Positions 6,516 to 31,171 of a stretch of DNA of 31,171 nucleotides are shown piece by piece. A program made the translations under genes and the position numbers. The DNA comes from a virus. The stretch covers positions 1-31,171 of IMG/VR virus record IMGVR_UViG_3300007363_000068, one strand, 5' to 3'. Under the pieces are notes generated by a model that saw only the letters and a list, made by a program, of their open reading frames with translations, was not told the origin of the DNA and did not search any database. Positions within the stretch are counted from its first letter, which is position 1; each line of letters begins with the position of its first letter.

Positions 6516-7379
6516 ATGGCAAATGAATTCGATAATACAGCCTTAAACGCTACTGTTAGAGAACTTTGGGACGAGAAGGTTGAAGAGGCACGTTATGCCA
6601 AGATGGTTATTGGCAATCGCGTTTCTAATAAATCAGGTCTCGCTCAGAAAAAGGGTGACATTATCAATGTGACCGTTGACCAGAAGTATACCGTTGGGAC
6701 AGTTTCTGCTGCTGGCGTTGTTGCCGCGCAGAACTATACTCCTACTTCTGTTCCGATCACATTGAACCAATGGGAACAAATTACGATCGTGGAGTTGGAC
6801 AGAGCCGTTGCTCAGTCTTTTTGGACTCCCGATTCGATCTTCCCTAGGAAAGTTGGTGAAGCCTTTGGTTCTCGTTACGATGCTCAGTTGGCTGCGCTTT
6901 ATACGGGCGTGGCGGCTGGTAATACCGTTGGCGATCCTAACAATCCTGAGGAATTTAGCAAAGCTCTATTCCAAGAGGCTATGTTGGATCTCGCTAATGC
7001 AAATGTTCCTTTGGAAGACTTGTCCTGGATTATTCATCCCAGGGCGTATCTCAAGGGATTGACTAACGAAGGACAGCTGACAGCGGCGCAAGATTCAGGC
7101 CAAAATAAAAACGTCTTGACTACGGGATATCAGTTCCCGTTGTTTGGCGTTCCTGTTTATCAGTCCACTAACATTGTTCGTGTCGGATCTCCTGCAGTTT
7201 ACAAGAACCTCTTGGTTCACAAGAGTGCGATTGCGATTGCATGGCAGAAAGACGCGGAAATCAAGAAAGCGGACGGATTGGCTGGACTTGTTCTGGGAAC
7301 GATTTTCAACGCGCAGAGCCTTTATGGTCTGTCGGTGATTCGTTCTGATCATTTCGTAGTTGCAAATAGTGCTGCATAA
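6516..7379 (+). CDS. major capsid protein (HK97 fold)
   Basis: A 287-residue protein of the HK97-fold coat class, similar in style to P22-like/N4-gp56-like coats. It has an N-terminal helical arm (MANEFDNTALNATVRELWDE), a beta-hairpin-like VTVDQKYTVGTV stretch, a spine-helix region with FGSRYDAQLAALYTG, and a C-terminal beta-rich P domain containing FGVPVYQST and a WQKDAEIKKA segment. It follows the scaffold gene by 28 bases with its own AAGGAAAT site. Codon choice here looks more optimised than in the neighbouring genes, as expected for a highly expressed coat. The exact subfamily is not settled by eye. Confidence 0.88.
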   Translation: MANEFDNTALNATVRELWDEKVEEARYAKMVIGNRVSNKSGLAQKKGDIINVTVDQKYTVGTVSAAGVVAAQNYTPTSVPITLNQWEQITIVELDRAVAQSFWTPDSIFPRKVGEAFGSRYDAQLAALYTGVAAGNTVGDPNNPEEFSKALFQEAMLDLANANVPLEDLSWIIHPRAYLKGLTNEGQLTAAQDSGQNKNVLTTGYQFPLFGVPVYQSTNIVRVGSPAVYKNLLVHKSAIAIAWQKDAEIKKADGLAGLVLGTIFNAQSLYGLSVIRSDHFVVANSAA

Positions 7380-19941: not shown

Positions 19942-20042
19942 CTAGATGTGATCATTGCGGATATCAGTTTATTAAAAAAGACGAGAGTGATGTTTTATCT
20001 TATTGCGAGAAATGCGAAAAAATAACAATATGCGAAAACTAA
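19935..20042 (+). CDS. 35-residue zinc-ribbon micro-protein
   Basis: Begins inside the end of the DUF5675 gene and encodes 35 residues with a full four-cysteine ribbon: CDHC at 5-8 and CEKC near 24-27 (MLARCDHCGYQF, then YCEKCEKITICEN). Two CxxC pairs 15 residues apart in so short a frame are unlikely by chance. Resembles the Com-like zinc peptides of phages in form only; function unknown. Confidence 0.6.
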   Translation: MLARCDHCGYQFIKKDESDVLSYCEKCEKITICEN

Positions 20043-20140
20043 TTGACGTTCTCATGCTTTTTGGAATCCCAATTATAATCTGTCTACTTCCGCTTATTGG
20101 GCTTTTAATTTTAATCGAGGTAATAATCAATGGACATTGA
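20030..20140 (+). CDS. 36-residue single-span membrane peptide
   Basis: MRKLIDVLMLFGIPIIIC followed by LLPLIGLLILIEVIING gives one long hydrophobic helix with a positive N-terminus. It overlaps the end of the zinc micro-protein and the start of the next peptide. The position right after the candidate lysis enzyme suggests a holin or spanin-like role. The ribosome site is weak. Confidence 0.5.
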   Translation: MRKLIDVLMLFGIPIIICLLPLIGLLILIEVIINGH

Positions 20141-20216
20141 CGGTGCCGGAGTCTGGTTCTGGGGATGCATGATTAACCTGCTACCTTTAATTGTATGCAT
20201 TCTGTTTACACAATAA
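20130..20216 (+). CDS. 28-residue membrane peptide
   Basis: MDIDGAGVWFWGCMINLLPL plus IVCILFTQ: an aromatic-rich start and a hydrophobic helix. GAGG lies eleven bases before the ATG and the frame overlaps the previous peptide by eleven bases. It could form a holin pair with the 20030 peptide. Small size keeps confidence low. Confidence 0.45.
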   Translation: MDIDGAGVWFWGCMINLLPLIVCILFTQ

Positions 20217-20223
20217 ATACATT

Positions 20224-20250
20224 AGTTACATACTAGTTACATATAGTTAC
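20224..20250 (+). repeat. phased AGTTAC repeats in a promoter-like gap
   Basis: AGTTAC occurs at 20224-20229, 20235-20240 and 20245-20250, spaced 11 and 10 bases, within copies of TAGTTACATA. A further copy lies at 20291-20296 just inside the next gene. One-turn spacing suggests a protein-binding array (operator) before the lipoprotein gene, immediately followed by the palindrome CGTCGACG at 20251-20258. Confidence 0.55.
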
Positions 20251-20269
20251 CGTCGACGATTTTACATAT

Positions 20270-20536
20270 ATGCGTAAAAAAATACATTTGAGTTACATTA
20301 AAATTGCATTAATCGGTTTAGCCATAATCGGGTGCGCTAAGAAGCCGGAGCCTAAGAATTACCCTTTAACTGGCCCCTGCTATCTATGGAACCTTGTCGA
20401 AGTGAAGAGAGAAGGGAAGAAAAAACTTTGTTGGACTATGTGGAAAGACGACAAAACGCTAAGATGCAATCGGGAACGTGGTCATGCTGGACGCCATCAT
20501 ATACATTATGTTAATGACTGCGTGGCTATATTTTGA
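20270..20536 (+). CDS. lipoprotein of the lysis region
   Basis: An 88-residue product with a lipoprotein signal: MRKKIHLSYIKIALIGLA then IIGC with the lipidated Cys at residue 22. The mature part of about 66 residues holds four cysteines (CYLW, KLCW, LRCN, NDC) and a HAGRHHIHY stretch. A short outer-membrane lipoprotein at the end of a lysis cassette could be an o-spanin, though the expected Pro-rich region is only hinted at (KKPEPKNYP). No ribosome site is visible at the ATG, but the gap upstream has the phased AGTTAC repeats. Confidence 0.68.
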   Translation: MRKKIHLSYIKIALIGLAIIGCAKKPEPKNYPLTGPCYLWNLVEVKREGKKKLCWTMWKDDKTLRCNRERGHAGRHHIHYVNDCVAIF

Positions 20537-20622
20537 GGAAATTAAAGCGTTTGGCTCTATGGCTCAAGGATCATTACAAGGACGGGCGATTCTTTGTGAC
20601 TCTCTTTAAGTGGAGGTGGTGA
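20533..20622 (+). CDS. possible 29-residue basic amphipathic peptide
   Basis: A TTG overlapping the lipoprotein stop opens a frame with 9 Lys/Arg among 29 residues and many Trp, Phe and Leu (ALWLKDHYKDGRFFVTLFKW), ending two bases before the hydrolase ATG. Coupling at both ends is the main support. It may equally be spacer. Confidence 0.3.
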   Translation: MRKLKRLALWLKDHYKDGRFFVTLFKWRW

Positions 20623-20623
20623 G

Positions 20624-21310
20624 ATGAGTCTGGACATTTTTTTAATTCACGGAATAGGCCAGAAATTCGATCCGTCATCCTACGATGACTTTGTAAATGG
20701 AATCAGGAAGTACCTACCCCTTGATTCGGACATTGTATGGCATCCGATTGATTATAGCTCCCTGTTGGCTCCAAGAGAGGCAAAGATTTACTCATGGATG
20801 AAACACTTGCCGTGGCCCAAGGTTAGGCGGTTTGCTTGTGATTTTATTGGAGATGTCTTGGCCTATGGATATCCCAAGAGGCCACCCGAAGAAGGTGATT
20901 TTATACATGACCTCAACAAACTTCTGGGCCAAGAGTTCGCTAAGTGTAGGGACAATTCAAAGCGTGTCATTATAGGCCATTCCCTCGGCTCAATCGTGGG
21001 CTACGGCGCAACATTTGATTTCAAGACTGATTGCTTAATTGTAATGGGAAGCCCTTTTTGTTACTTTTCTGTCAGATATAAAAACTTTGGTGAGATGAAC
21101 CCAGACCTTCCGCAATTTCATAACTTCTGGCGTGGGCGTGATCCTGTTTCTACGATTATTTCAAAGAATCCAAACTTTAAGATGGTGCATGACTATGAGG
21201 TTAAATCCTTCAATCCTCTAAATCAATTCATGCTTCGGAGTCACGGTATCTATTGGAAGAGTAAATTTGTCCATGAAAAGATTGCTAAAATTATTCAGTC
21301 TTTGGCTTGA
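20624..21310 (+). CDS. alpha/beta hydrolase (serine esterase/lipase type)
   Basis: A 228-residue enzyme with IHGIG at residues 8-12 (oxyanion region), the nucleophile elbow GHSLGS with Ser at 120, a likely acid in GRDPVS (Asp 173) and His in RSHGIYW (207), the full order of an alpha/beta-hydrolase triad. No signal peptide. It closes the rightward late operon, with GGAGGT before the ATG. In mycobacteriophages a hydrolase (LysB) of this fold cleaves outer-membrane lipids at lysis. A lipid or ester target here is possible, but lack of an export signal is a caution. Downstream lies the att-like region. Confidence 0.8.
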   Translation: MSLDIFLIHGIGQKFDPSSYDDFVNGIRKYLPLDSDIVWHPIDYSSLLAPREAKIYSWMKHLPWPKVRRFACDFIGDVLAYGYPKRPPEEGDFIHDLNKLLGQEFAKCRDNSKRVIIGHSLGSIVGYGATFDFKTDCLIVMGSPFCYFSVRYKNFGEMNPDLPQFHNFWRGRDPVSTIISKNPNFKMVHDYEVKSFNPLNQFMLRSHGIYWKSKFVHEKIAKIIQSLA

Positions 21311-21354
21311 TTTCAATAAAAAAACCCAATTATAACCCAAAAACAATATATTCT

Positions 21355-21420
21355 CCGTCGATGAAACACGCTTTCCAGGCGAGCCGTTTAAGCCACTCAC
21401 GCACCCCTCCTCATCGACGG
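21355..21420. repeat. perfect 10-bp inverted repeat bracketing the tRNA half
   Basis: CCGTCGATGA at 21355-21364 and its exact complement TCATCGACGG at 21411-21420 flank 46 bases. Those 46 bases are exactly the tRNA-like part. A third related copy, CCGTCGACGA, is at 20250-20259 before the lipoprotein gene. Confidence 0.92.
21365..21410 (-). other. 5' half of a tRNA-Ser(GGA) gene, candidate att core
   Basis: Read on the - strand the 46 bases match nucleotides 1 to about 45 of a bacterial serine tRNA: acceptor 5' strand GGAGGGG, TG, D-stem CGT/ACG closing an 11-base loop GAGTGGCTTAA, then an anticodon arm CTCGC-CTGGAAA-GCGTG with anticodon GGA. One T-T mismatch is present in the anticodon stem. 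The variable arm, T-arm and acceptor 3' strand are missing and replaced by the inverted-repeat arm, so it cannot be a functional tRNA alone. It fits integration at a tRNA-Ser gene with the crossover in the anticodon region. Confidence 0.75.
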
Positions 21421-21533
21421 TAAATCAAGACTTATCCACAGGCGGATTATTGGGTAAATTTGGGTCAATCGTGACAACGTAGGCCATTGTTTGGTCTTGA
21501 AAACTTTGAAAACCCAAATTTTACCCAATAAAA

Positions 21534-21923
21534 TCATAGCCGTACTCGGATCATTCTTTCCGCAAGATAGTGGGGCTGGAAGTGAGCATACCTTTGAACC
21601 ATTGAAAGCGTTCCCCACCCGCCAAGAACCCTTAAATCGGCCAAGGTTCCGCCGGATTTGAGGTAAGCCGAGGCCCAAGTATGCCGAAGGTCATGGGGCC
21701 TTATACGGCCCATTCTAGCGCGGGCGATTGCAATCTGTGGGCTTGCTTGATAGACTTCTTGGGTTTCATTGACCCGCCCCATGCCCAGCCCGATATAAGG
21801 GCGGACGGCGGACCATATCGGCGGAACCGACAAAATGGTTAAGGGAAAAATGATTAGAATGCCTTTAATTGTTTTCAGGAGACATCCAAACCGTATAGTT
21901 TTTTGAAAACTTTTTATTTTCAC
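21534..21923 (-). pseudogene. int: tyrosine integrase, C-terminal part only
   Basis: The open frame is 130 codons, but only the part after about 21864 reads as integrase: FPLT, then RPHDLRHTWAS (Arg II with its His), LGGWGTLSMVQRYAH with the nucleophilic Tyr, and a basic tail. The arm-binding and core-binding domains, the first catalytic Arg and the beta-hairpin Lys are absent; a whole integrase would need about 200-250 more residues. The missing 5' part coincides with the end of the membrane-protein gene (stop at 21865-21867), whose last codons overlap this frame. It is therefore a truncated gene, probably cut when the cargo cassette arrived. It lies beside the attP-like site, as int genes normally do. 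Confidence 0.82.
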
Positions 21924-23499
21924 GCATAGACTTCAATATCGGATCAAGAAATGGCTGACGTGGATATTGGCTAACATTTACAAAACCGTCCAGGCAGAAC
22001 ATAAATTCCGAAATGTCGCCCTGATTGTAATATAGGTTTTTGTTCAGATCGCCATTAGTCGGCGTATAATATCTCCAGACGAACTCCTCCTCGCCAATGC
22101 CTAAAGTATTCGCCAAAATACCAGTATTTTTTAAGTTTTCATCTCTCGGCGTTGATCCGATAGTCGGATGTCCATCTCCGATGATTTGGCGGTTATGGGT
22201 ATGAGTAGCTATTAGTTTGCTTAGCAATGGGCTCATAGTTAAAACGATTGATCCTTTGTCGGTTTTATTATTCAGCCAGTCTATATGTTCTTCCCACTCA
22301 ATTGGTAGCCCAGCAAAAAGATAATGCTTTTCGGCGGAGGATTTGGCATTGAAAAAGACCACGCAAAGCATGACACCGACAGCGACACGGGCCACGGCTC
22401 TGATCTGCGGTCCAACATAATCATGCGCCAGCTTTATTAAAGCGATGAGGATGACGGGCTTGAGGAACCTCTCCAACACGGACATTTCGAGAGGGACATT
22501 TATGACAAGATCAAGGTTCACCGCAATTGCGACCATAATCAGAGTTGATCCGACGGCAGACCAAAATAGCTTGTCCGCTTTGGCAGACCTCCAGATGCAA
22601 ACCACTCCCGCAACGAGATACGGGATCGTGGCCCATCGGCCTTGTGTCGCAATCGACTGCATTTTCTCTGCTCTGTCAAAAGTTCCGCCAAAAGATAGGC
22701 ATATGATACCGACAACGAGAGCCAAACATAGAATAATCATAGTCCTTGCCCTATTTTCGGCGGACAAAATATATGTCATCCCGATCACTCCGAGGCAGAA
22801 AATATATTCCGGAGGATGAACTAACGGCATGAGGCCGGCACATAAACCCAGAAGAATGTTTGTCAGAATTGACTTTCCCCTCGACAAAGAAAACCATCCC
22901 CACCAAGCCACGGCAAAGAGGGACGAAAATAGAGGCGACGGTAGACATGAAACCGCGCCACGGTACATGACGCCGAAATTGATTGCATGATAAAGTGCCT
23001 TGCCAACGCTGAACCCGCCAGATAGAGCGATGAACGCTTGCAGAAATTCAGACATGAGCAGGGAATAAAACACCCTTTCCCAGAAGTCCGATTCAGGCAA
23101 CAATTTCCGAAAATAAAGCATCGCCCAGATGAACCATAGAGACGGGCAGAGGAAAGCAAAGAAAGTAAATCCGATGTCCAGCCGCTTAAATAATCTGCAC
23201 CAACCATAAATGATATAGTGCATCGCAGAGTCCAGAAGCCATGATTTTAATCGAGTGTCACCAGAATAAGGGTCCCCTGGAACGCCTGTCTGCCTGATTG
23301 CGTTGATCTTGGTTATGTAATCAATGTTTGATAGCCACGGTACTGCGAAGGTCGTCTGCCCATTTGTAACAGTCTCCGTCCATGTTGTTCCGCCGTTTGA
23401 CTTGGCTTGTGCTCTCAAATAATCCGCGTAGAAATACTCGAATGAATGGAAAGCGAAAAGAGTTACCGCCAAGCCAATAACTAAAAACGCTTTTTTCAC
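21865..23499 (-). CDS. polytopic membrane protein, GT-C-like, cargo gene
   Basis: A 544-residue integral membrane protein. It has an N-terminal signal-anchor (FLVIGLAVTLFAFHSF), a long first loop of about 75 residues, then roughly nine or ten hydrophobic spans to residue about 370. A soluble C-terminal domain of about 165 residues follows, including GLPIEWEEHIDWLNN and IATHTHNRQIIGDGHP. This architecture is that of GT-C glycosyltransferases and related O-antigen-type enzymes, but I see no diagnostic motif. By eye it is more GC-rich than the late genes. It overlaps the radical SAM gene (ATGA), so the two are one unit. Both look like bacterial envelope-modification genes carried as cargo. Confidence 0.75.
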   Translation of the reverse strand: MKKAFLVIGLAVTLFAFHSFEYFYADYLRAQAKSNGGTTWTETVTNGQTTFAVPWLSNIDYITKINAIRQTGVPGDPYSGDTRLKSWLLDSAMHYIIYGWCRLFKRLDIGFTFFAFLCPSLWFIWAMLYFRKLLPESDFWERVFYSLLMSEFLQAFIALSGGFSVGKALYHAINFGVMYRGAVSCLPSPLFSSLFAVAWWGWFSLSRGKSILTNILLGLCAGLMPLVHPPEYIFCLGVIGMTYILSAENRARTMIILCLALVVGIICLSFGGTFDRAEKMQSIATQGRWATIPYLVAGVVCIWRSAKADKLFWSAVGSTLIMVAIAVNLDLVINVPLEMSVLERFLKPVILIALIKLAHDYVGPQIRAVARVAVGVMLCVVFFNAKSSAEKHYLFAGLPIEWEEHIDWLNNKTDKGSIVLTMSPLLSKLIATHTHNRQIIGDGHPTIGSTPRDENLKNTGILANTLGIGEEEFVWRYYTPTNGDLNKNLYYNQGDISEFMFCLDGFVNVSQYPRQPFLDPILKSMRENKKFSKNYTVWMSPENN

Positions 23500-24830
23500 A
23501 GATGCCCGTCCGTCAGCTTACGCCTCGCCTTTAATAGATTTATGCCCACGCCAAGTCCCTCATTCGCCTGCAAAAGAAGTTGTTGCCAAGTTTTTATACC
23601 AGTCATCCGCTTCCAAATGTAGGACGGACGGAGATAGAATCGACGCACCGCGTGGTTACGGAGGCCCACTAAGGTCGCCGGCGACATAGTATCCGTGCCC
23701 ATGACATTATTGCCTGCCGTGTCAAAGCCCAGCTCCGTACCCTCTTGCCTAAGTGATGATCCCAACAATGGAGTTGCAATATTGAACGATGCATAATCAA
23801 CGCCGATGTCTAACGCCATTTGAATTGTTTCCTTGCAGGATTTCTCACTTTCACCATTAAATCCGATGATGAAGTCCCCGCAAACCGATATCCCACGCCG
23901 ATGGGCCTCACGAATGAAATTCTCAATTACGGGCCTTGAGACATATCGCCCGTAAGTTGAGAGCATATTAGTGTCAGCCGAGTCTATACCGATCACGAAT
24001 GTATGACATCCCGATCTTGCGGACATGTCCATCATCTCCTCCGTCATAACAGACGGGTGCGTGTAACTTGACCACGAGAAATTAAATCTTTCCTCAATCA
24101 TACCTTGAAGGATTTCGATTGCGTTGTCTCTTGGAGTTCCGAATGTTGCATCTCCAATAAGTATTTCTTTGTATCCTGATTCTTTTAATATTCTCATTTC
24201 GCTCAGGACATCCACGGCGGGCCTATAGGTGACATTAGTTAAAGATTCTGTGCAGTACGAACAGGAGAAAGGACATCCAAATTGAGTGTAAACGCTCGCA
24301 AATTTGAAATGCCGAATAAAAGGCCAGCGGTATTTCCAGTTATTAAAAAGCCAATGTCTCGGATATTGTGTGCGGATTTGTTTCGTGTCCTTTTTTCCAG
24401 AAATATGAGTACTTTTCCCTGTCGTAAAATCAAAACGGAGCGGGTCCCGAATAATTGCGTCCACATATTTCGTGGCAAATTCCGCCGCTTTCGGTTCAAA
24501 GTAAACTTCTCCGAACGTGTAAATTGTTTTGAGAGGGAATTCTTGGCGAAGTTTGATTAGAAAATTGCTGTCATCCTCCCATGAAATTGACGACGCTGCC
24601 ATAACGATTATGTCAGGCGATTTATCCTTAATCCATTCGAGGGAATATTCAGCAGACTTGCCGTTTATGCTCGAATCGAGAAAATGAATTTTCCAATCAG
24701 GCGGCACCATGCTCGACAGTAGGATGAAGTCCTTCGGCTTCCACACGTATCGGGATTTGGATATGTAAGTGCAGATTGTTCCTCGATAAAGGAAACGATT
24801 TCCTGGTGGGTTGATAAATGCAATGTTCAC
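23496..24830 (-). CDS. B12-binding-type radical SAM enzyme, cargo gene
   Basis: A 444-residue enzyme. The N-terminal 150 residues have the Rossmann-like build of the cobalamin-binding domain found in this superfamily (NIAFINPPG, then PDIIVMAASSIS), but without a visible DxHxxG motif. The radical SAM core carries the [4Fe-4S] motif CPFSCSYC at residues 186-193, followed by ILIGDATFGTPRD, a YTHPSVMTEEMM barrel segment and GDFIIGFNGE. Such enzymes methylate or rearrange lipids, sugars and natural products. It starts at a GTG overlapping the RusA stop (GTGA), so it is translated with the phage early operon. A host-like gene in a phage operon is unusual. Confidence 0.85.
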   Translation of the reverse strand: MNIAFINPPGNRFLYRGTICTYISKSRYVWKPKDFILLSSMVPPDWKIHFLDSSINGKSAEYSLEWIKDKSPDIIVMAASSISWEDDSNFLIKLRQEFPLKTIYTFGEVYFEPKAAEFATKYVDAIIRDPLRFDFTTGKSTHISGKKDTKQIRTQYPRHWLFNNWKYRWPFIRHFKFASVYTQFGCPFSCSYCTESLTNVTYRPAVDVLSEMRILKESGYKEILIGDATFGTPRDNAIEILQGMIEERFNFSWSSYTHPSVMTEEMMDMSARSGCHTFVIGIDSADTNMLSTYGRYVSRPVIENFIREAHRRGISVCGDFIIGFNGESEKSCKETIQMALDIGVDYASFNIATPLLGSSLRQEGTELGFDTAGNNVMGTDTMSPATLVGLRNHAVRRFYLRPSYIWKRMTGIKTWQQLLLQANEGLGVGINLLKARRKLTDGHL

Positions 24831-25225
24831 GCGAGAACCTCCATCACAACCTGTATTCGCGGGTTTGTTTTGTCATAACCCATGTGTGTCCAAAATACAT
24901 TCTCGAGGAGAGCATCATCCTCCACGAATCCGCCACGCTCAAGAACGTGCCAAAGCGCGTCAATCATAGCGGGCACGTCGCGCCGACGCTTATCGCCAGA
25001 CCAATACCGAACGGTTACGTGAGCAGGAGTTTTAATTGTTCGATCCACCCCATAATGGTTAAAAACGTGTTGTTGTCTGATCTGTGCAATCGCGCCGTCC
25101 CTCCATTCCACAAACGCTGGATTTGGGTATCTGTGCCCGGTGCGCGTGATCTGCACGTGGTTTTTACCACCTCGAATTTGTCCTTTAAGCTCAAACACAA
25201 TCATTCGATTATCACCGCCCCTCAC
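24827..25225 (-). CDS. rusA: RusA-type Holliday junction resolvase
   Basis: A 132-residue protein of the RusA endonuclease family, which resolves four-way junctions during phage recombination. GKNHVQITRTGHRYPNP matches the N-terminal basic segment. The acidic metal-binding set follows: RRDVPAMIDALWHVLE (Asp 83, Asp 89), then FVEDDALLENV (Asp 103/104), and a C-terminal strand IQVVMEVL. The GTG at 25225 overlaps the upstream stop with GGAAGGGGG before it; an ATG at 25204 is an alternative. The family's usual length is 110-140 residues, so it looks intact. It belongs with the ERF, YqaJ and NinG genes farther upstream in the operon. Confidence 0.8.
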   Translation of the reverse strand: MRGGDNRMIVFELKGQIRGGKNHVQITRTGHRYPNPAFVEWRDGAIAQIRQQHVFNHYGVDRTIKTPAHVTVRYWSGDKRRRDVPAMIDALWHVLERGGFVEDDALLENVFWTHMGYDKTNPRIQVVMEVLA

Positions 25226-25461
25226 TTCGCCCCCTTCCTGTTCAGGGGCATATTTTTAGGGGATAAACGATAATAGGCCATAAATATTAACGAAGTTGAT
25301 AGATGGACATCGAAGTCCCCTTCCATATCTCGGCTCAGTAAAGTTTCGTTATAGGTGGCTATCCATGTAATTTCAGCGATAATCGGGGTATCTCTTTTGG
25401 GCGATGCCAACACAATACCCGAAAAGAAAAGAAGGATCAGAACTGCGGATTTAATTTTCAT
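25222..25461 (-). CDS. small secreted protein
   Basis: Not recognised. A 79-residue product with a signal peptide (MKIKSAVLILLFFSGIVLA, cleavage near residue 19) and a short mature part of about 60 residues without cysteines. It overlaps its neighbours on both sides (ATGA, GTGA). An exported protein made early from a recombination operon could act on the host envelope, for example in superinfection control, but that is guesswork. Confidence 0.65.
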   Translation of the reverse strand: MKIKSAVLILLFFSGIVLASPKRDTPIIAEITWIATYNETLLSRDMEGDFDVHLSTSLIFMAYYRLSPKNMPLNRKGAK

Positions 25462-25775
25462 TCCCTTCCGCGAGGGGCTTTGTTAAATCCACAGACACAA
25501 TCGCCACGATTCACACTCGCAGGACAAGCTCCGTCTGTATGTCCGGTTACAAAAAAAGGCAATCCGTCTGTAATATGTTGCCCATACTTCTCCAAAGCCG
25601 CTCTCAGCCGAATATTATCCGATTTTAGATTTGCCAAATCATTAGCCCTCCAAGTTTCCATTTGCACAGAGAATGTTGAAAACTTTCTAGAAGAATTATT
25701 TTCTACAAATAAAGATTGTCCTGGTATTGCACATTCAACTATTTTATACTCACAATCTTTTTTCTCGTCGATCAT
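25458..25775 (-). CDS. early-region protein with coiled coil and Cys-rich end
   Basis: Not recognised. A 105-residue product with a central coiled coil (LANLKSDNIRLRAALEKYGQH) and a C-terminal ACPASVNRGDCVCGF segment that could bind zinc. Phage early proteins of the form 'helix, then C..CxCGF' are common and uncharacterised. AAGGAG lies nine bases before the ATG. It overlaps the neighbouring genes by ATGA. Confidence 0.68.
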   Translation of the reverse strand: MIDEKKDCEYKIVECAIPGQSLFVENNSSRKFSTFSVQMETWRANDLANLKSDNIRLRAALEKYGQHITDGLPFFVTGHTDGACPASVNRGDCVCGFNKAPRGRE

Positions 25776-25990
25776 TTTGAAATTCTCCTTGGGTTGCGCT
25801 CAATTATTTCGCAAAATCTTGCATCCCTGCCTTCCCATCCATCGTTATAGATAGATTTCTTACTAGGCCAAAATCCTCCAATTGGTCTCCCTCTTTTGAA
25901 AGCAACCCATGCAAAATACCTCTTCGTCTTAGTCATCAAGTCCTCCTCTATTTCTTTTTCAGCTTGTGATTTTATTGCTTTTATATCCAT
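25772..25990 (-). CDS. small early-region protein
   Basis: Not recognised. The start at 25990 is chosen because AAAGGAG lies six bases upstream; the frame opens further at 26023. The 72-residue, charged product has a helical N-terminus and a basic centre (KTKRYFAWVAFKRGRP, then GGFWPSKK). The stop overlaps the next start. Confidence 0.62.
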   Translation of the reverse strand: MDIKAIKSQAEKEIEEDLMTKTKRYFAWVAFKRGRPIGGFWPSKKSIYNDGWEGRDARFCEIIERNPRRISK

Positions 25991-26011
25991 ACTGTTCTCC
26001 TTTCGCTTCCA

Positions 26012-26037
26012 GCGGATCGACATGGAGCCAACCTATA
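26012..26037. repeat. dispersed 26-bp repeat, copy 1
   Basis: GCGGATCGACATGGAGCCAA and the following CCTATA match 28485-28510 at 22 of 26 positions. Both copies lie at gaps of the early operon just upstream of a gene or operon segment. On the - strand each can be read as I-G-W-x-H-x-x-P, so the repeat may be a remnant of a duplicated coding end or a shared regulatory element. Confidence 0.6.
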
Positions 26038-26116
26038 AAGTTTGACTCTTGGGGATATGACACGGACACTCGCATTTTCCATCATCGTGATTTTTCTCAT
26101 TCCAACATGAACACAT
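26033..26116 (-). CDS. 27-residue Cys-rich micro-protein
   Basis: AAGGAG lies seven bases before the ATG. The product is MCSCWNEKNHDDGKCECPCH followed by seven residues: CxC, then CxCxC with a His, enough ligands for a small metal site. Its end runs into the dispersed repeat at 26012-26037. Length makes it uncertain. Confidence 0.5.
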   Translation of the reverse strand: MCSCWNEKNHDDGKCECPCHIPKSQTL

Positions 26117-26119
26117 TGT

Positions 26120-26248
26120 TTATCTCCTTAGCTCTGGGTTCTCGTAAATGTTGCCGATGACTTCATAAATATTCTCAACAATTTCTGGAGCGCAATCACC
26201 ACCACCATCATCAATGTATGAAGCGGAAACATTGAATCCGCATCCTCC
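26120..26248 (-). pseudogene. start-less 42-codon frame, possible gene remnant
   Basis: An open frame without ATG, GTG or TTG codons reads GGCGFNVSASYIDDGGGDCA and then an acidic helix with EIVENIYEVIGNIYE, stopping at 26120. The composition looks protein-like. Upstream in the same frame is a TGA, and a GAGGAGG site with an ATG in another frame lies just there, so a frameshift may have broken the gene. Confidence 0.35.
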
Positions 26249-26280
26249 TCAAATTGTGGGTGGCGGCGGCAGGGAAGCCT

Positions 26281-26397
26281 TTAATCCGCGTCTCTTCCCC
26301 ATGATTCGGATTTACCGACGGACACGGCGGATTTATAGTCCGACGCTTCGTCACCGGTTCGCTGTACGTTTTTCGCATGAAGCCGCCAGTTTGTCAT
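26281..26397 (-). CDS. 38-residue small protein
   Basis: Starts at an ATG overlapping the upstream stop (ATGA) and encodes MTNWRLHAKNVQRTGDEASD plus 18 more polar residues. No domain recognised. The coupling to the upstream gene is the main support for it. Confidence 0.45.
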   Translation of the reverse strand: MTNWRLHAKNVQRTGDEASDYKSAVSVGKSESWGRDAD

Positions 26398-26618
26398 AAT
26401 GTCATCAATCCTCTATCCTCGACTTCCTTTTTGCTTTGATCTTCTTTGAGACTGTTCACCCATCGGCCATCTTTGAATATTTCAATGTCCCCGCCTGCTC
26501 TCAAATAATCGTTCCCGCCATCTACGAATGAATGTCCGCACTTGCAAATATCCATGTGATGCCTGTGAGTTGATTCAATCTCATCGTGGCAGATAGCGCA
26601 CCGAGTTCTAAGTTTCAT
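26394..26618 (-). CDS. zinc-binding small protein, DUF7695-like
   Basis: A 74-residue protein with CAIC near residue 7, then HRHHMDICKCGHSFVDGGND. This CxxC...ESxHRH...CxCG..xVDGGxDY pattern matches a widespread phage/plasmid small protein family (DUF7695-like, from memory). Function not known. It overlaps neighbours on both sides and belongs to the coupled chain from 27998 to 26281. Confidence 0.72.
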   Translation of the reverse strand: MKLRTRCAICHDEIESTHRHHMDICKCGHSFVDGGNDYLRAGGDIEIFKDGRWVNSLKEDQSKKEVEDRGLMTL

Positions 26619-26890
26619 GACTTCATCCCCTCCCGATCGGCGCGGAGCTTGGATTGCAATTCTTCAATTGTTTTGTGTGCCCAATATAACCCATTCGCCG
26701 TTATTGTAACGACTTGCATAAAATCTTCGTCTTCCCAATTTCTATCACAAGCATTTTTTAGAACAGTCTTTGCCTCATCCAAGAGCCGCCGCGCCTCTGC
26801 AAGCTCGAATTTGAGAAAGGCGATTTTTTCCGCATGGACACACTCGATACAATTCGCATTGGTTAAATTAAGGTGCTTGCAATGGCTCAT
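26615..26890 (-). CDS. coiled-coil early protein with N-terminal Cys/His
   Basis: Not recognised. A 91-residue product with HCKHLNLTNANCIECVH at the start (three Cys and several His, possible zinc site), then a long coiled coil (KIAFLKFELAEARRLLDEAK) and a second helix near the end. The start overlaps the upstream stop (ATGA). Confidence 0.68.
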   Translation of the reverse strand: MSHCKHLNLTNANCIECVHAEKIAFLKFELAEARRLLDEAKTVLKNACDRNWEDEDFMQVVTITANGLYWAHKTIEELQSKLRADREGMKS

Positions 26891-27045
26891 TTCACTCTCC
26901 TCCGCTTTGGGATGGGTTCGTATTTTAAGCAGACTCCGGTATCGTACATGGTGTCTATCTCGTCACAATGACTACATCCACTATCGCCTTTTATAAAATA
27001 GTGTTCCGATCTTGGATGCGAACATCTACACACTCTCCGAGCCAT
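26887..27045 (-). CDS. 52-residue Cys/His small protein
   Basis: The ATG at 27045 has GGAGGG eight bases upstream and overlaps the upstream stop (TGATG), so it is preferred over the frame's earlier opening at 27093. The product carries CRCSHPRSEHYF, then GCSHC and a lone Cys near the end: a likely zinc-binding peptide resembling the 'CxCxHxxxxH' small proteins of phages. Basic tail KRRRVK. Confidence 0.62.
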   Translation of the reverse strand: MARRVCRCSHPRSEHYFIKGDSGCSHCDEIDTMYDTGVCLKYEPIPKRRRVK

Positions 27046-27161
27046 CAGGGCTTCCCTCCGCGTCTCACTCGACGAGTTTCGCACATGCAACATTGATCGT
27101 GAGGAACTTTATCTGCACCCACAAAGACAGTCTGACAAAAGCAATGTTCGCAAGTAATCAT
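27045..27161 (-). CDS. 38-residue zinc-ribbon micro-protein
   Basis: Overlaps the upstream stop (ATGA) and the downstream start (TGATG), with AGGGGAAGG just before its ATG. The product MITCEHCFCQTVFVGADKVP continues to CCMCETRRVRRGGKP: CxxCxC and CCxxC pairs about 20 residues apart form a ribbon, followed by a basic tail suited to nucleic acid. Confidence 0.6.
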   Translation of the reverse strand: MITCEHCFCQTVFVGADKVPHDQCCMCETRRVRRGGKP

Positions 27162-27448
27162 ACCTTCCCCTCATCCTTGGCGGGCGCGAGGGCTTCGTTA
27201 AGTATGTTACGGATTGCTTTCATCTGTCTATAATAATGATCTTCCACAGCCGCCTGATCTGCCCAACCTGTAAACTTTCCTTCGGCATTAACCTGATTTA
27301 ATGCAGTTTTCAAGATAGATAAATACCGCACATTCTCAGCTTCGAGGCGGTCGATTTCTTTTTTATAACCACAATCACACGCCCATATATCAACCCTGTT
27401 CCCAGGATGTACTCTGCAAGTCAACTGTGTAATATTTGCATCAAGCAT
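27158..27448 (-). CDS. early-region protein with Cys pair and coiled coil
   Basis: Not recognised. A 96-residue product with CRVHPGNRVDIWACDCGYKK near the N-terminus (three Cys and one His), a coiled coil (EIDRLEAENVRYLSILK) and a helical C-terminus ending NEALAPAKDEG. A similar QALAPVEREKG ending occurs in the neighbouring gene at 27448, so the two may share an origin. The start overlaps the upstream stop (TAATG). Confidence 0.7.
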   Translation of the reverse strand: MLDANITQLTCRVHPGNRVDIWACDCGYKKEIDRLEAENVRYLSILKTALNQVNAEGKFTGWADQAAVEDHYYRQMKAIRNILNEALAPAKDEGKV

Positions 27449-27855
27449 TATCCCATCCTCCCTTTTTCTCTTTCTACTGGCGCGAGGGCTTGTTCCGCTG
27501 AATGAAATTCACATAGGGAATTATCCTTTATCATTGTTGCCTCAGGGCATAATCGGCAAGCATGGTCTGTCCATTCCCATCTACGGGGACCTTCACGCAT
27601 AATTTTATTTCTACGATAGAGCGCGCATAGAGCCTCTTCCAGCTCCTTCACGCGGGCGGTGAGAGATTTGGTTTTAGAAATTGGCAACTTGGATCGCGGA
27701 AATGGGTATACACCTCCGTGTTGTTCTTTATATGCGCTTATGACAAAACATCTTCGTGGGTAACATCTCCGCCATTCCCCACAGCTACATTCTCCAACCC
27801 AGTCTTCTCCGTCATCAGAGTGTTTTATTTTAATTAACCTATGCAATTCACTCAT
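27448..27855 (-). CDS. early-region Cys-rich protein
   Basis: Not recognised. A 135-residue product. The N-terminal part has WVGECSCGEWRRCYPRRC (four Cys), the centre a coiled coil (LTARVKELEEALCALYRR), and the C-terminal part HACRLCPEA and CEFH, another possible zinc site. It ends with QALAPVEREKGRMG. A GGAGGG site precedes the ATG, which overlaps the small gene upstream (ATGA). Confidence 0.7.
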   Translation of the reverse strand: MSELHRLIKIKHSDDGEDWVGECSCGEWRRCYPRRCFVISAYKEQHGGVYPFPRSKLPISKTKSLTARVKELEEALCALYRRNKIMREGPRRWEWTDHACRLCPEATMIKDNSLCEFHSAEQALAPVEREKGRMG

Positions 27856-27998
27856 ATTCCCTCCGATCCTTCAAAGTTGAAGTGGTGGACGATGGTGACG
27901 AACCTTACTAGGGCCCGCCAACTACCTCTGTGTGGCTCTATCACTAGTCTCATTTGACACGTTCGATTAGTCGTCGTCCGCTTAACATGAGCATTCAT
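27852..27998 (-). CDS. 48-residue basic small protein
   Basis: Begins at 27998 and ends in an ATGA overlap with the next gene, whose ribosome site lies in its last codons. The product has TTTNRTCQMRLVIEPHRGSW then RALVRFVTIVHHFNFEG. The same frame is open upstream for 16 more codons, rich in Trp (FTKWWRCLSLWTDW) but without a standard start, so the gene may have lost its true beginning. Confidence 0.5.
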   Translation of the reverse strand: MNAHVKRTTTNRTCQMRLVIEPHRGSWRALVRFVTIVHHFNFEGSEGI

Positions 27999-28051
27999 AA
28001 GCCAGTCCGTCCACAGAGATAAACACCGCCACCACTTCGTAAATCATTTTT

Positions 28052-28222
28052 TTAATAGCCATAGCCATCATCACCCCAAGCAATACCAGTCAGCGCATCC
28101 ATCACGCTTTTTGCAAAATTATCTACATCCGGCCTCTTGAAACATGGCAACAAACCGTAAAAATCGATTTTACGGCACTTGGCTTTCGGTCTTTTAACAT
28201 GGACATCAATCCATACCCTCAT
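28052..28222 (-). pseudogene. second RusA-like gene, truncated at both ends
   Basis: The core motif of RusA is clear: RVWIDVHVKRPKAK, then RPDVDNFAKSVMDALTGIAW and GDDGYGY, containing the DxDN and DxL/DD acidic sets. About 50 N-terminal residues are missing (the upstream sequence is the end of a membrane-protein gene) and the last 30 or so residues after the DD are replaced by a stop. The frame opens at 28273; the ATG at 28222 is the likelier start. It belongs to a different RusA subgroup from the intact gene at 24827. Confidence 0.7.
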
Positions 28223-28238
28223 GCCCTGAAAACTTACT

Positions 28239-28457
28239 TTACTTTTTTTCCTTCGACAAGCTATCACGCACATAGCTCATAGCCAGATTTTTAATCTCCT
28301 GCATATCTTCGGGAATTTCTTTAATGAATTGAGAGTTTGCAATCTTCGGAGCAATGTAAATAAATGTGCCTATTGTAAATACAGCAATTCCGGTAGTAAT
28401 AAAAAATCCCTGCACATAGTCCATCCTAGTAAGTAAGTACGCTTGCATTCTCGTCAT
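28239..28457 (-). CDS. small single-span membrane protein
   Basis: A 72-residue product with one strong transmembrane helix (GFFITTGIAVFTIGTFIYIA, residues about 17-36) and a charged C-terminal helix (EIPEDMQEIKNLAMSYVRDS). AAGGA lies 11 bases before the ATG. Function unknown. Confidence 0.6.
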   Translation of the reverse strand: MTRMQAYLLTRMDYVQGFFITTGIAVFTIGTFIYIAPKIANSQFIKEIPEDMQEIKNLAMSYVRDSLSKEKK

Positions 28458-28484
28458 ACGTTCACCATCCTTTTAATATTGTGC

Positions 28485-28510
28485 GCGGATTGGCATGGAT
28501 CCAACCTATT
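28485..28510. repeat. dispersed 26-bp repeat, copy 2
   Basis: GCGGATTGGCATGGATCCAA plus CCTATT; pairs with 26012-26037 (22 of 26 identical). It lies in the 62-base gap between the 28239 and 28520 genes. Confidence 0.6.
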
Positions 28511-28519
28511 ACACCGTAG

Positions 28520-28693
28520 CTAGCGGACGCGCCTTGTCGTCTTGTCATGACAAATTTTTACAATATCGACTTCAACAATCTCTTTTTCAGGAATTTCTCC
28601 GCAATTCAATCTAAGTTCCTGAATTGATTTATAAACCACCGTGCATCTTTCATTGGCATAGCGTGATTCATAAACGTAGCCCTTGGTTATCAT
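28520..28693 (-). CDS. 57-residue early-region protein
   Basis: An ATG overlapping the upstream stop (ATGA) opens 57 codons: MITKGYVYESRYANERCTVV, then a helix (YKSIQELRLN) and a basic end CHDKTTRRVR. No domain recognised; the compact beta-alpha-beta-like pattern and coupling support a real gene. Confidence 0.6.
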   Translation of the reverse strand: MITKGYVYESRYANERCTVVYKSIQELRLNCGEIPEKEIVEVDIVKICHDKTTRRVR

Positions 28694-28860
28694 TTCCGTA
28701 TGTCCTCAATAGTATTGAATACCTTTTGACGCAAATCATGTAAACCTTTCCTGTCTTTAATGTTCATCAGAAAGTGATAAATTTCTATTAGCGTATTATC
28801 AGCTTTCTCCAGCTTATAGCGCAATAACTTTGTGTTTTCGTCTAATTCGCATTGACACAT
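28690..28860 (-). CDS. 56-residue helical early protein
   Basis: The ATG at 28860 has GAAGGA seven bases upstream and is preferred to a TTG at 28875. The product begins MCQCELDENTK and is otherwise helical with leucine spacing of a coiled coil. The stop overlaps the next gene. Function unknown. Confidence 0.6.
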   Translation of the reverse strand: MCQCELDENTKLLRYKLEKADNTLIEIYHFLMNIKDRKGLHDLRQKVFNTIEDIRK

Positions 28861-28880
28861 TATCAAGTCCTTCAAACACT

Positions 28881-29321
28881 TTATGCAGGTAATAATTCTA
28901 TAACCTCACGATCAATAATTTCCTCTTGTATTTTACGCTCATACTCTTCTATCAATTTCTTATAGTCCTCTACTGTGAATTTCACCACCTGTTTGGCATT
29001 GTGTCTTAATTCCTCGATCAAATTATCGGTATATTCTTTGCCAAACTCTGTGCGCATATAGGCCACATATTCGTGGATGTTCCCACCCTTCATTATATTG
29101 CACCCATAACAGCACGGGAAAATGCCTCGCTCATCAAAAAGTATTCCTAACCGCCTCGAAGGGACAAGATGCCCTGCCTGTAATTTCTTCCAATGTTTTG
29201 ATACTCCACAGCAAACGCAACTTGCAAAGCCATCAGGATTAGAATACTTACGACGGATATATTCAGAGCATAGTTTCCAAGCATCGGCTTTCCAAAGACT
29301 CAATTTGCGAGATTTCTTCAT
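28881..29321 (-). CDS. ninG: NinG-type recombination protein
   Basis: A 146-residue protein of the lambda NinG (Rap) family, which binds branched DNA and aids phage recombination. The diagnostic stretch is SEYIRRKYSN, then CVCCGVSKHWKKLQAGHLVP, LFDERGIFPCCYGCNIMKGG and HEYVAYMRTEFG: an HNH-like zinc site with CxxC, AGH and CxxCN. The C-terminus is a charged coiled coil. GGAGGAG precedes the ATG, which overlaps the gene upstream. It sits in the same operon as ERF, YqaJ and RusA. Confidence 0.85.
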   Translation of the reverse strand: MKKSRKLSLWKADAWKLCSEYIRRKYSNPDGFASCVCCGVSKHWKKLQAGHLVPSRRLGILFDERGIFPCCYGCNIMKGGNIHEYVAYMRTEFGKEYTDNLIEELRHNAKQVVKFTVEDYKKLIEEYERKIQEEIIDREVIELLPA

Positions 29322-29602
29322 TTCTCCTCCAATCCTAATTCCTGTTGTCCGATTCCGTAAAGTTCAGGATATCGCTTCTTCATCATCTCGGTAATTTGTC
29401 CTTGCTCATATTTAACCTTTTTAAGATCATCCTCGATTCTGGATCGCTTATCTCCGCAATCATCGCTCGGCAAGCAATGGCAACAGGTTCTTTGCGCCAT
29501 CGGGTCATTATCGGAGATTATCTCACCTTGTGCATTTTTAACGATAGAACGCTTTGCAAGATACTCTCGGTCATGGTTGGCGCAGATGAAATGAAAGGCC
29601 AT
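29318..29602 (-). CDS. Cys/His early-region protein
   Basis: Not recognised. A 94-residue product with Cys/His at FICANHDREY and TCCHCLPSDDCGDKRS (possible metal site), then a charged coiled coil (RIEDDLKKVKYEQGQITEMM). Start and stop overlap the neighbours (TAATG, ATGA). Confidence 0.68.
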   Translation of the reverse strand: MAFHFICANHDREYLAKRSIVKNAQGEIISDNDPMAQRTCCHCLPSDDCGDKRSRIEDDLKKVKYEQGQITEMMKKRYPELYGIGQQELGLEEK

Positions 29603-29838
29603 TAGATCATCACCCCTTGCCCATTAGCCTCGTATACTATCGGCGATTTTAGTATATAACGATTATTCGATGGATACTTACTGTCACGCTGACAGTCCAC
29701 CGTGTACCCTCTTTTCCTTAATTCTGTAAACATCCTTCGATATTCGACGCGATAATCTTCTAAGTCCATAATCTCTTTCAATGTTATCTGATTCCCTCGG
29801 AATTGAATTACACCTAAAAAACTATCGGTTTTGTTCAC
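29602..29838 (-). CDS. winged-helix DNA-binding protein
   Basis: A 78-residue protein with a helix-turn-helix/winged-helix outline: NQITLKEIMDLEDYRVEYRR then FTELRKRGYTVDCQRDSKYP and RYILKSP, close to the small 'it..eA....i.rl...i..LR.rGy.I' proteins of phages. It starts with GTG overlapping the small gene upstream (GTGA). It could regulate the early operon or help replication. Confidence 0.65.
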   Translation of the reverse strand: MNKTDSFLGVIQFRGNQITLKEIMDLEDYRVEYRRMFTELRKRGYTVDCQRDSKYPSNNRYILKSPIVYEANGQGVMI

Positions 29839-29942
29839 AGTATTATCTTCACGCTCCTTTTATAAACTTTCTTCTTCGCCTTGATACACTTTACGACAAT
29901 CACGCTGAAACATAGGATGCAGATGGATGCGCTGACGATCAT
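29835..29942 (-). CDS. 35-residue membrane peptide
   Basis: MIVSASICILCFSVIVVKCI followed by a strongly basic tail KAKKKVYKRSVKIIL: one membrane helix and a positive end. It overlaps the next gene by GTGA. No good ribosome site. Confidence 0.42.
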   Translation of the reverse strand: MIVSASICILCFSVIVVKCIKAKKKVYKRSVKIIL

Positions 29943-29955
29943 AGACTAGAATGGT

Positions 29956-30306
29956 TCAAAAGGGTACAATAGGCTGACAGTTCTCAAAATAGTAGTTATC
30001 AAACTTTCCATCCTTCGACTTCGTAACCTTGAGAGTGCATGAAAATGTCCTTCCTTCCACCTGTTCGTCATCCCACTCGACATCATTCCCCACTTTCTTT
30101 CCTCCGATAGCCAAGACAATAGAATTATATTGATTCCCAAACAGGTGAAATTTCTTTGTAGTTTCACCATTCTTACCAATATAACCTAAATTCCAGATTC
30201 GCTTAAATCCATTGTTAGGGAGCATATGCTTCTCTGGTACGCCAATAACCGTAAACTCATACGGCCCTTCTTCTAACGGCCCATTACCTGTAATAATCTC
30301 TTTCAT
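29956..30306 (-). CDS. candidate single-strand DNA-binding protein (DUF669-like)
   Basis: A 116-residue, beta-rich protein with GPYEFTVIGVPEKHML, then TTKKFHLFGNQYNSIVLAIG, EGRTFSCTLKVTKSKDGKFD and a closing NYYFENCQPI. This order resembles the DUF669 and similar OB-fold SSB-type proteins encoded with ERF and YqaJ in phages. It would protect the strands made by the exonuclease. A clear AAAGGAG lies ten bases before the ATG. Assignment is by pattern and context, not a sure match. Confidence 0.6.
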   Translation of the reverse strand: MKEIITGNGPLEEGPYEFTVIGVPEKHMLPNNGFKRIWNLGYIGKNGETTKKFHLFGNQYNSIVLAIGGKKVGNDVEWDDEQVEGRTFSCTLKVTKSKDGKFDNYYFENCQPIVPF

Positions 30307-30309
30307 ATT

Positions 30310-30915
30310 TTATTCTCCTTTTATTTGTTTGATAAGATCAGTAAGTTGGTTACAAAACGTAACCAAGTGTTCACTCAATTTGTCCTGAAAGTCTTTTATC
30401 GGCTCGACCCGAACTACCAGAGGTCTGATAGCTGGATAATATGAAATTATATCGCACCATTTACGGCCTGTTACAAGCAATTCCCCTTGTACTTGCTGAA
30501 AGTATTCCATATCCAGACCGCCGTCAACAAGATATGAAACATGGGTAGCCATCATCGGGCACTTAATCTCGATCATACCGTCGTCGCCAACAAACCCATC
30601 AGGAGATGCCCCATATCTGGCCTTGCCTTCTGATTCGCAAAACCCGACAAGCTCAACCGTTTTACCCGTCGTCAATTCGTAAAATGAACGGGCCTCGGAC
30701 TCCATTTCATTGCCTCGAATCATAGCCGCATTTTTGTACGTTTCCTCTTGCTTACCCGCAACGCTCTCTCCCGCCAATTGCAGAAGGTATTTGCGCCATT
30801 GCTTAGACGGTTCGCCTTTAGTGGTCAAAATTTTATCGAAATTTGAGGCCGTAGGCATACCGCACCGAACAGACAGCCACTCTTCCGATCCTTGAACGCA
30901 GTTTATGATCTTCAC
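30310..30915 (-). CDS. YqaJ/lambda-exonuclease-type recombinase nuclease
   Basis: A 201-residue enzyme of the YqaJ (lambda Red exonuclease) family that digests the 5' strand of double-stranded ends. Signs are GSEEWLSVRCGMPTASNF at the start, RGNEMESEARSFYE (Glu near 74), YGASPDGFVG (Asp 106), MIEIKCP (Glu 116, Lys 118) and QVQGELLVTG; these are the PD-(D/E)XK residues. Length is normal. The GTG start overlaps the ERF stop (GTGA), so annealing protein and nuclease are co-translated. Confidence 0.9.
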   Translation of the reverse strand: MKIINCVQGSEEWLSVRCGMPTASNFDKILTTKGEPSKQWRKYLLQLAGESVAGKQEETYKNAAMIRGNEMESEARSFYELTTGKTVELVGFCESEGKARYGASPDGFVGDDGMIEIKCPMMATHVSYLVDGGLDMEYFQQVQGELLVTGRKWCDIISYYPAIRPLVVRVEPIKDFQDKLSEHLVTFCNQLTDLIKQIKGE

Positions 30916-31171
30916 TTCTTCACCGTCCGCTTGGCCTCAATCGCATTTAGTGCCTTCCTCATATCAGATTTAGTCATATCCTCCAAGCGCTCAATCTTCA
31001 TATATTCTAGGAATTTGGCTATATTGATATCGACTTCCGACAGTAACACGTTGATTTTTTGAATATCTTCCTCGCTTACTTTTTCAGTCACGGCCTGCCC
31101 GTCATCATCAATCATATCTTGAGCGGCTAAACCTGTTATGCAAAGGAGTGAATATCTGGATAAATAGCTAA
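30912..31171 (-). CDS. erf: ERF-type single-strand annealing protein, C-terminal part
   Basis: The frame is open to the window edge. The visible 85 residues read SYLSRYSLLCITGLAAQD followed by MIDDDGQAV, the signature end of the ERF core (typically 'xYaxRYaLxxllGiaxxDDDDG'). The C-terminus contains EEDIQKINVLLSEVDINIAK and an ALNAIEAKR helix, as in ERF C-terminal domains. It anneals single strands produced by the YqaJ nuclease encoded next. The N-terminal two thirds lie outside the window. An internal ATG at 31115 is not the true start. Confidence 0.85.
   Translation of the reverse strand, partial: SYLSRYSLLCITGLAAQDMIDDDGQAVTEKVSEEDIQKINVLLSEVDINIAKFLEYMKIERLEDMTKSDMRKALNAIEAKRTVKK

Follow-up and report, generated by a model that had tools for sequence, protein, structure and literature searches.

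A dense run of small cysteine-rich genes beside NinG in the early-type operon of an IMG/VR virus

We analyzed an IMG/VR virus record, IMGVR_UViG_3300007363_000068, over its full 31,171 bases (hereafter the window), and in particular positions 26033 to 29602, a stretch of very short minus-strand genes in which an earlier examination of the letters (the sequence-only reading) had singled out nine proteins with clusters of cysteines and histidines. Late genes, the terminase among them, lie on the plus strand of the record and early-type genes on the minus strand; from its gene content we infer that the operon containing the nine is early. The only close relative found is a sibling contig, IMGVR_UViG_3300025635_000008 (38,967 bases), which is 99.3% identical over positions 20313 to 31171 of the window. 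All nine minus-strand open reading frames (ORFs) are indeed open, and each encodes at least one C-x(1-2)-C pair. Our main finding is that such pairs are in marked excess here, in an operon of recombination genes, and that two of the nine proteins belong to recognizable families, NinG and DUF7695. The small cysteine-rich genes of the stretch, read from the right end, are the following (aa, amino acids).

29318 to 29602, minus strand: 94-aa cysteine protein upstream of NinG, with a C-x2-H and a CCHC cluster; an orphan
28881 to 29321, minus strand: NinG/Rap family recombination nuclease, 146 aa (Pfam PF05766; PHROG 5034, 5.4e-17; 15 phage records)
28690 to 28860, minus strand: 56-aa ORF with one N-terminal CxC, outside the list of the sequence-only reading
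27448 to 27855, minus strand: 135-aa protein with eight cysteines, first gene of the overlapping block
27158 to 27448, minus strand: 96-aa protein with C-x2-H and C-x-C
27045 to 27161, minus strand: 38-aa protein with six cysteines; no Pfam match
26887 to 27045, minus strand: 52-aa protein, CxCxH..H..CxxC
26615 to 26890, minus strand: 91-aa protein with an N-terminal CxH..CxxC
26394 to 26618, minus strand: 74-aa DUF7695 protein with four cysteines, zinc-ribbon-like (Pfam PF24749)
26033 to 26116, minus strand: 27-aa peptide, CxC..H..CxCxCH, with a strong Shine-Dalgarno site

Two of the nine frames differ from those first proposed: for the 26887 protein, a start at 27045 (52 aa, a junction of 1 nucleotide (nt) and its own Shine-Dalgarno site) is likelier than one at 27093, and the 26033 protein is a peptide of only 27 aa.

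For the counts, small ORFs were those of 25 to 150 aa. Because codon scoring in a first gene caller worked against cysteine-rich frames, ORFs were taken from a second caller, whose calls in one phage region were in good agreement with the annotation there. A C-x(1-2)-C pair is present in 10 of the 15 small ORFs of the stretch, and at least two pairs in 7 of them; when residues were shuffled within each protein, the mean was 4.7 ORFs with a pair and the maximum 9 in 5000 rounds. Two cysteine or histidine ligand pairs occur in all nine named proteins (mean of 5.9 in shuffles, nine being reached in 19/5000). Comparison regions of about 5 to 21 kilobases (kb) each were taken round YqaJ or NinG in other phages. 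In these 14 regions, 41 of 290 small ORFs carry a pair and 20/290 carry two or more. Fisher tests of the stretch against them give p = 1.2e-5 for a pair, 7.7e-5 for at least two and 4.7e-5 for a pair with NinG excluded; these values err on the optimistic side, the stretch having been selected on its cysteine content. Of the 14 regions, ten were hand-picked from 35 listed YqaJ and NinG phage matches, and the other four are IMG/VR matches that do not come from the sibling; the sibling's upstream part (3/13) and Pseudanabaena phage Pan2, fetched through DUF7695 (2/15), were kept out of the pool. Within the window, a pair is found in 11/22 small ORFs of the whole early region and in 2/11 of those among the late genes, and cysteine makes up 55 of the 1081 residues (5.1%) in the small ORFs of the stretch versus 1.4% in late small ORFs. 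Both the shuffles and the comparison regions bear out the density of putative zinc peptides remarked on in the sequence-only reading.

This density is near the extreme, and the window is not alone in it. Among the matches listed, 118 IMG/VR loci carry the DUF7695 motif; their best run of eight consecutive genes includes seven cysteine-pair genes in one locus, five in four loci and four in eleven, and the best run of the window includes six. Small cysteine-pair genes are also commoner within two genes of DUF7695 (64/231) than farther away (148/839; p = 0.001), as counted in the 103 of these 118 loci where the DUF7695 gene was called. At the locus that we labelled L054 (10238 to 12424), seven of eight consecutive genes are small with cysteine pairs, one having the DUF7695 motif, a denser cluster than that of the window.

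The DUF7695 protein is the best characterized of the small members. It matches PF24749 with 49.7 bits (curated cut-off 25). When DNA was scanned with a pattern for the motif's second half, which did not demand the first CxxC, at least 119 stretches were found in IMG/VR and at least 117 in GTDB genomes, most of the 80 listed GTDB records being titled Clostridia, Bacilli or members thereof. Of these matches, at least 236 in number (217 distinct sequences, sibling included), 226 have at least 16 residues upstream, and the first CxxC is present in 226/226 among the matches listed; nine others are truncated and one has no match in its frame. In an alignment of 61 sequences, the first CxxC is kept in all 61; C7, C10, S16, C25, C27, G28, V32 to G35, D37 and Y38 are invariant, and H20 is nearly so. 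Both figures rest on sets unfiltered for the first CxxC. The CxxC, CxCG and VDGGxDY motifs are conserved in this alignment, their second half having been demanded by the search pattern, and the 26394 protein is 29 to 46% identical to its 60 aligned relatives. In this family, the one in which relatives without the cysteines were looked for, none of these 226 matches lacked the first CxxC.

An AlphaFold2 model of this protein is all-beta, with a mean predicted local distance difference score (pLDDT) of 77 and a predicted template-modelling score (pTM) of 0.57. Its best structural neighbour in the PDB has Z 3.5 over 51 residues (root-mean-square deviation 2.9); many of its neighbours are S27e/eS27 zinc ribbons of ribosomes, all of them weak matches. 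In a profile search of PDB sequences, four ribonuclease P entries (E 0.02 to 0.05) ranked ahead of S27e (E 0.66), and the fold searches ruled out no family. The model is no more than consistent with a four-cysteine zinc ribbon. Other matches of the 26394 protein are weak: TniQ in PADLOC (E 0.002) and, as the sole NCBIfam match, ribosomal protein L31 (6.9e-5, 22 bits versus a cut-off of 70). No mention of DUF7695 was found in the literature searched.

The second recognizable member, at 28881 to 29321, is of the NinG/Rap family, matching PF05766 with 50.1 bits (curated cut-off 25.4) over profile positions 68 to 189 of 193; it is without the N-terminal third of the family, and a nuclease activity on branched DNA is predicted for it. 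For the seven other members, no Pfam family was found at E <= 0.001. Protein searches of phage genomes returned nothing for 29318 (E 0.1) or for 27158, 27448 and 26615 (E 1); for 26887, they gave no more than six mycobacteriophage matches, at E 0.5 to 1. IMG/VR scans matched only the sibling for 27448, 26887, 26394, 29318 and an SSB-like protein of the same operon. Weak PHROG matches, all to families of unknown function, concern 26394 (0.004), 26887 (0.049) and 29318 (0.016). We read the seven orphans as putative zinc microproteins.

A scan of IMG/VR for the motif of the 27-aa peptide gave 22 stretches, sibling included, most of whose frames have no further resemblance to it. Two contigs in this set (L275 and L277) are identical over 2283 bases and represent one virus, with a 53-aa frame reading C-x2-C...HD-x-G-x-CECPCH. 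In L277 (2032 to 2670, reverse strand), this cysteine-rich frame resembling the peptide is followed, 63 nt downstream, by a NinG gene (32 bits versus the Pfam cut-off of 25.4); part of the motif had been selected for, and the NinG neighbour had not. As a possible relative of the peptide, the L277 frame is a single case and no more than suggestive.

The rest of the operon is made largely of recombination genes and other small frames. The features that bear on the discussion are these.

30310 to 30915, minus strand: YqaJ-type exonuclease (PHROG 149, 1e-33; 384 phage records)
29956 to 30306, minus strand: SSB-like protein, weak (PHROG 378, E 0.009; no Pfam match at E 0.01; sibling only in IMG/VR)
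28052 to 28273, minus strand: RusA resolvase remnant covering the profile middle, 49 to 102 of 124 (Pfam PF05866, 3e-9; PHROG 140, 4.1e-11)
26128 to 26397, minus strand: broken stretch of short frames, one an in-frame relic without a usual start codon
25458 to 25775, minus strand: 105-aa protein with one cysteine pair, in the same operon
24827 to 25225, minus strand: second, fuller RusA-like resolvase (PHROG 34, 2.5e-8; no Pfam match at E 0.01)

Read from the right end of the window, the minus strand carries the tail of an ERF gene, YqaJ, the SSB-like gene, small genes, the cysteine gene 29318 to 29602, NinG, two small genes, a 72-aa gene, the RusA remnant, the cysteine block from 27855 to 26394, the broken stretch, the 27-aa cysteine peptide, three small genes, the second RusA, a radical SAM protein and a 544-aa protein. 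The sibling extends about 7 kb upstream beyond the right end of the window and includes the ERF recombinase (positions 6576 to 7295 of the sibling, our locus L002), which is related by phmmer to genes of L003, L004, L249, L251 and L005; the name ERF is taken from the annotated relative in L249. A megablast of positions 20000 to 31171 against phage records gave no match, and terminator-like sites were not found on the minus strand from 31171 to 23000, in a scan that was overall no richer than shuffles.

Several observations concern the flanks and the far end of this operon. The two RusA-type genes, 28052 to 28273 and 24827 to 25225, have different best PHROG families, as if one had taken the other's place. 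In the broken stretch (26128 to 26397), a protein-like open frame without a usual start, FNVSASYIDD...NIYENPEL, falls within the region shared with the sibling at 99.3% identity. Farther on (21865 to 24830, minus strand), the radical SAM protein (Pfam, 5.2e-17; also a PADLOC defence-candidate match, 6e-7) and the 544-aa protein trail the second RusA through 4-nt overlaps, and this host-like cargo seems to be read together with the early operon. The frame at 21534 to 21923 (minus strand) resembles at its start a protein of the sibling (L002, 4671 to 5315; 82% over 76 nt); we take this start to be perhaps that of an outer-membrane protein and the end to read like a tyrosine-recombinase C-terminus, so that the frame is perhaps a recombination junction. 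Finally, two gaps of the operon share a 22-nt element, GGTTGGMTCCATGYCRATCCGC (26012 to 26033 and 28485 to 28506, both minus strand), which lies 21 and 27 nt ahead of the next start called; one copy touches the stop of the 26033 peptide and the other lies 13 nt past the stop of gene 28520. It had no matches in 100 shuffles, and among 278 loci it is confined to those that come from this phage or the sibling. It is possibly a regulatory or leader element.

The sequence-only reading had joined the whole stretch into one long translation-coupled chain. This holds for six genes, from 27855 to 26394, where each of the five junctions is an overlap of 4 or 1 nt, in an unbroken stop-start series. It does not hold for the stretch as a whole, in which the six genes are preceded by gaps of 196, 62 and 20 nt and followed by the broken stretch. 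NinG itself overlaps the 29318 gene by 4 nt, and the 20-nt gap follows it. Across the 24 early junctions (21865 to 31171), 15 overlap by 4 or 1 nt, eight are gaps of 3 to 196 nt and one is a 29-nt overlap. Coupling as a feature special to the cysteine genes was rejected, since late genes overlap equally often (14/24); in the comparison set, such overlaps make up 135 of 361 junctions. Shine-Dalgarno pairing as strong as that of eight of the nine members is reached by at most 5.3% of random early positions (7% for 29318); for 26033 and 27045, the pairing energies (dG) are -9.1 and -8.5, matched by 3.6% and 5.3% of such positions. Because most members have a good Shine-Dalgarno site of their own, translational coupling of the cysteine genes is plausible only as a possibility.

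Duplication, which the similar endings of two proteins (ALAPAKDEG and ALAPVEREKG) had appeared to hint at, was also rejected. The two tails have 13 exact nucleotides in common, and 274 of 500 shuffles scored at least as high as the alignment of the 27158 and 27448 proteins; five further pairs were tested, the best of which, 25458 with 27448, was reached by 33/500.

Our preferred explanation, to which we give a probability of roughly 0.55, is that the block is an accessory, nin-like segment of a tailed-phage early operon, in which short, unrelated zinc-type genes are set among recombination genes. Between the genes of the recombination module (ERF annealase, YqaJ, SSB-like protein, NinG and RusA) would sit very short genes that are unrelated to each other, many of them coding for proteins that resemble zinc ribbons or knuckles of a single domain. 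A single long message would probably be translated through stop-start junctions together with each gene's own Shine-Dalgarno site, and we propose that these make the small proteins appear early and together. Each product would probably fold round one zinc ion and serve as a dispensable binding module: some would bind DNA or RNA next to NinG and the other recombination enzymes, and others may bind host proteins. We read the high density as the mark of a site where small genes are gained and lost; the decayed RusA and the broken frame that flank the block suggest such a turnover of accessory genes.

Several results weigh against this explanation. The survey of DUF7695 loci hints that in some phages small cysteine-pair genes lie close together; in the 14 comparison regions such genes are not significantly clustered (p = 0.25), the next small gene having a pair in 6/31 cases after a cysteine-pair gene and in 21/177 otherwise. 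No homologue of the seven orphans was found in these regions (phmmer, E 1). Among the proteins scanned, there is no NinE, NinF or Q family: PF05322 and PF05810 gave no match at E 0.1 or 1, and antiterminator Q none among the early proteins in a scan that covered part of the ORFs. The S27e likeness of the DUF7695 model is weak, the highest Foldseek probability being 0.63 at E 0.9, with none at E 0.001. That model is the only usable one obtained; the single-sequence model of 27448 (pLDDT 49) was too poor for use and was kept out of the fold searches. The L277 match (E 0.002) was drawn from sequences preselected by part of the motif, and its 53-aa frame was not called by the gene caller. Lastly, the sibling, at 99.3% identity over this part, is too near to gauge selection on the frames.

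Among the alternatives, the one that fares best, and that we consider quite possible, is that the small proteins serve recombination only, as subunits or DNA-binding partners of NinG, RusA, ERF and YqaJ. The small genes do lie round NinG and RusA in one operon; NinE and NinF precede NinG in phage 434, as the similar cysteine frame does in L277, and in Pan2 a RuvC resolvase gene has a 4-nt overlap with the annotated gene that spans the DUF7695 match. The same lack of orphan homologues in the YqaJ and NinG regions tells against it, however, as does the occurrence of DUF7695 in many phage and bacterial contigs. Only slightly less likely is the proposal of the sequence-only reading that the block is a host-takeover set; its early small zinc proteins would bind to and redirect such host machinery as RNA polymerase, nucleases or restriction enzymes, as the small protein Orf73 of lambda does. 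An early-type operon of small orphan proteins, each with possible zinc ligands, would suit this proposal, but no TraR/DksA or other host-targeting family was convincingly matched (the TraR/DksA zinc-finger profile gave no match at E 0.1 or at E 1, with 10 proteins each), and the only recognizable enzyme among the nine, NinG, is a recombination nuclease. The genetic setting points to recombination and replication accessory genes at least as much as to host takeover.

It is unlikely that the cluster is in part an artefact of calling very short frames, with 26033 and 27045 not being genes and the cluster correspondingly smaller. Chance easily opens frames of 27 and 38 aa, and no relatives were found for most members; yet both have good Shine-Dalgarno sites (dG -9.1 and -8.5), 27045 is tightly packed, and the cysteine pairs of the set exceed those of shuffles. 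A bolder version of the takeover proposal, in which dedicated zinc-microprotein islands beside NinG-type genes, made up of unrelated one-domain zinc proteins with joint translation, are swapped in and out as a set and form a multi-target early toolkit against host proteins, seems to us decidedly improbable. A zinc or redox buffer, in which co-made cysteine peptides act as a metal or thiol sink in the infected cell, would fit the 5.1% cysteine of the stretch as against 1.4% in late small ORFs, but is very improbable, since the members are dissimilar and neither VDGGxDY of DUF7695 nor the NinG domain is needed for a plain sink.

Our preferred explanation, that of an accessory nin-like segment, can be set beside known systems, and both the anatomy of the block and the idea of takeover factors have precedents. 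In the lambdoid nin region, too, short early genes mostly overlap by 4 nt and NinG stands within the overlapping chain. By annotated coordinates, 7 of the 8 junctions from ren to the Q fragment of phage 434 overlap by 4 nt, and small cysteine proteins likewise lie near NinG: NinE and NinF, which come directly before it, match PF05322 and PF05810 there, and NinF touches double-zinc-ribbon profiles below their cut-offs. Unlike in the nin region, here there are more cysteine genes, the late genes are on the other strand, and the block is mostly downstream of NinG, between the RusA remnant and the fuller RusA. Many nin-region genes are described as having no known function (PMC3224144), and for lambda, five nin genes targeted by CRISPR interference are reported to have scored as nonessential once Q was supplied (PMC10695390). 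A model for host reprogramming by small phage proteins is provided by the TraR/DksA-type proteins of phages and mobile elements, such as lambda Orf73, a small TraR-family protein described as acting on host RNA polymerase (PMC9239242). As for density, two HF1-like haloviruses are reported to encode 23 and 21 CxxC-motif proteins, 14 and 12 of them under 100 aa, mostly of unknown function and unevenly placed, one 26.4-kb region being described as having none (PMC7230728). These viruses resemble the present one in their many small CxxC proteins and differ in being archaeal; the likeness rests on that description, no common family having been established. Small cysteine-rich phage proteins are common and mostly without a function, and this locus is an extreme, compact example: with NinG and DUF7695 as two recognizable anchors, the block is convenient to delete or to express whole. 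Such clusters have already been described in other viruses, so that the block is striking while its kind is not new.

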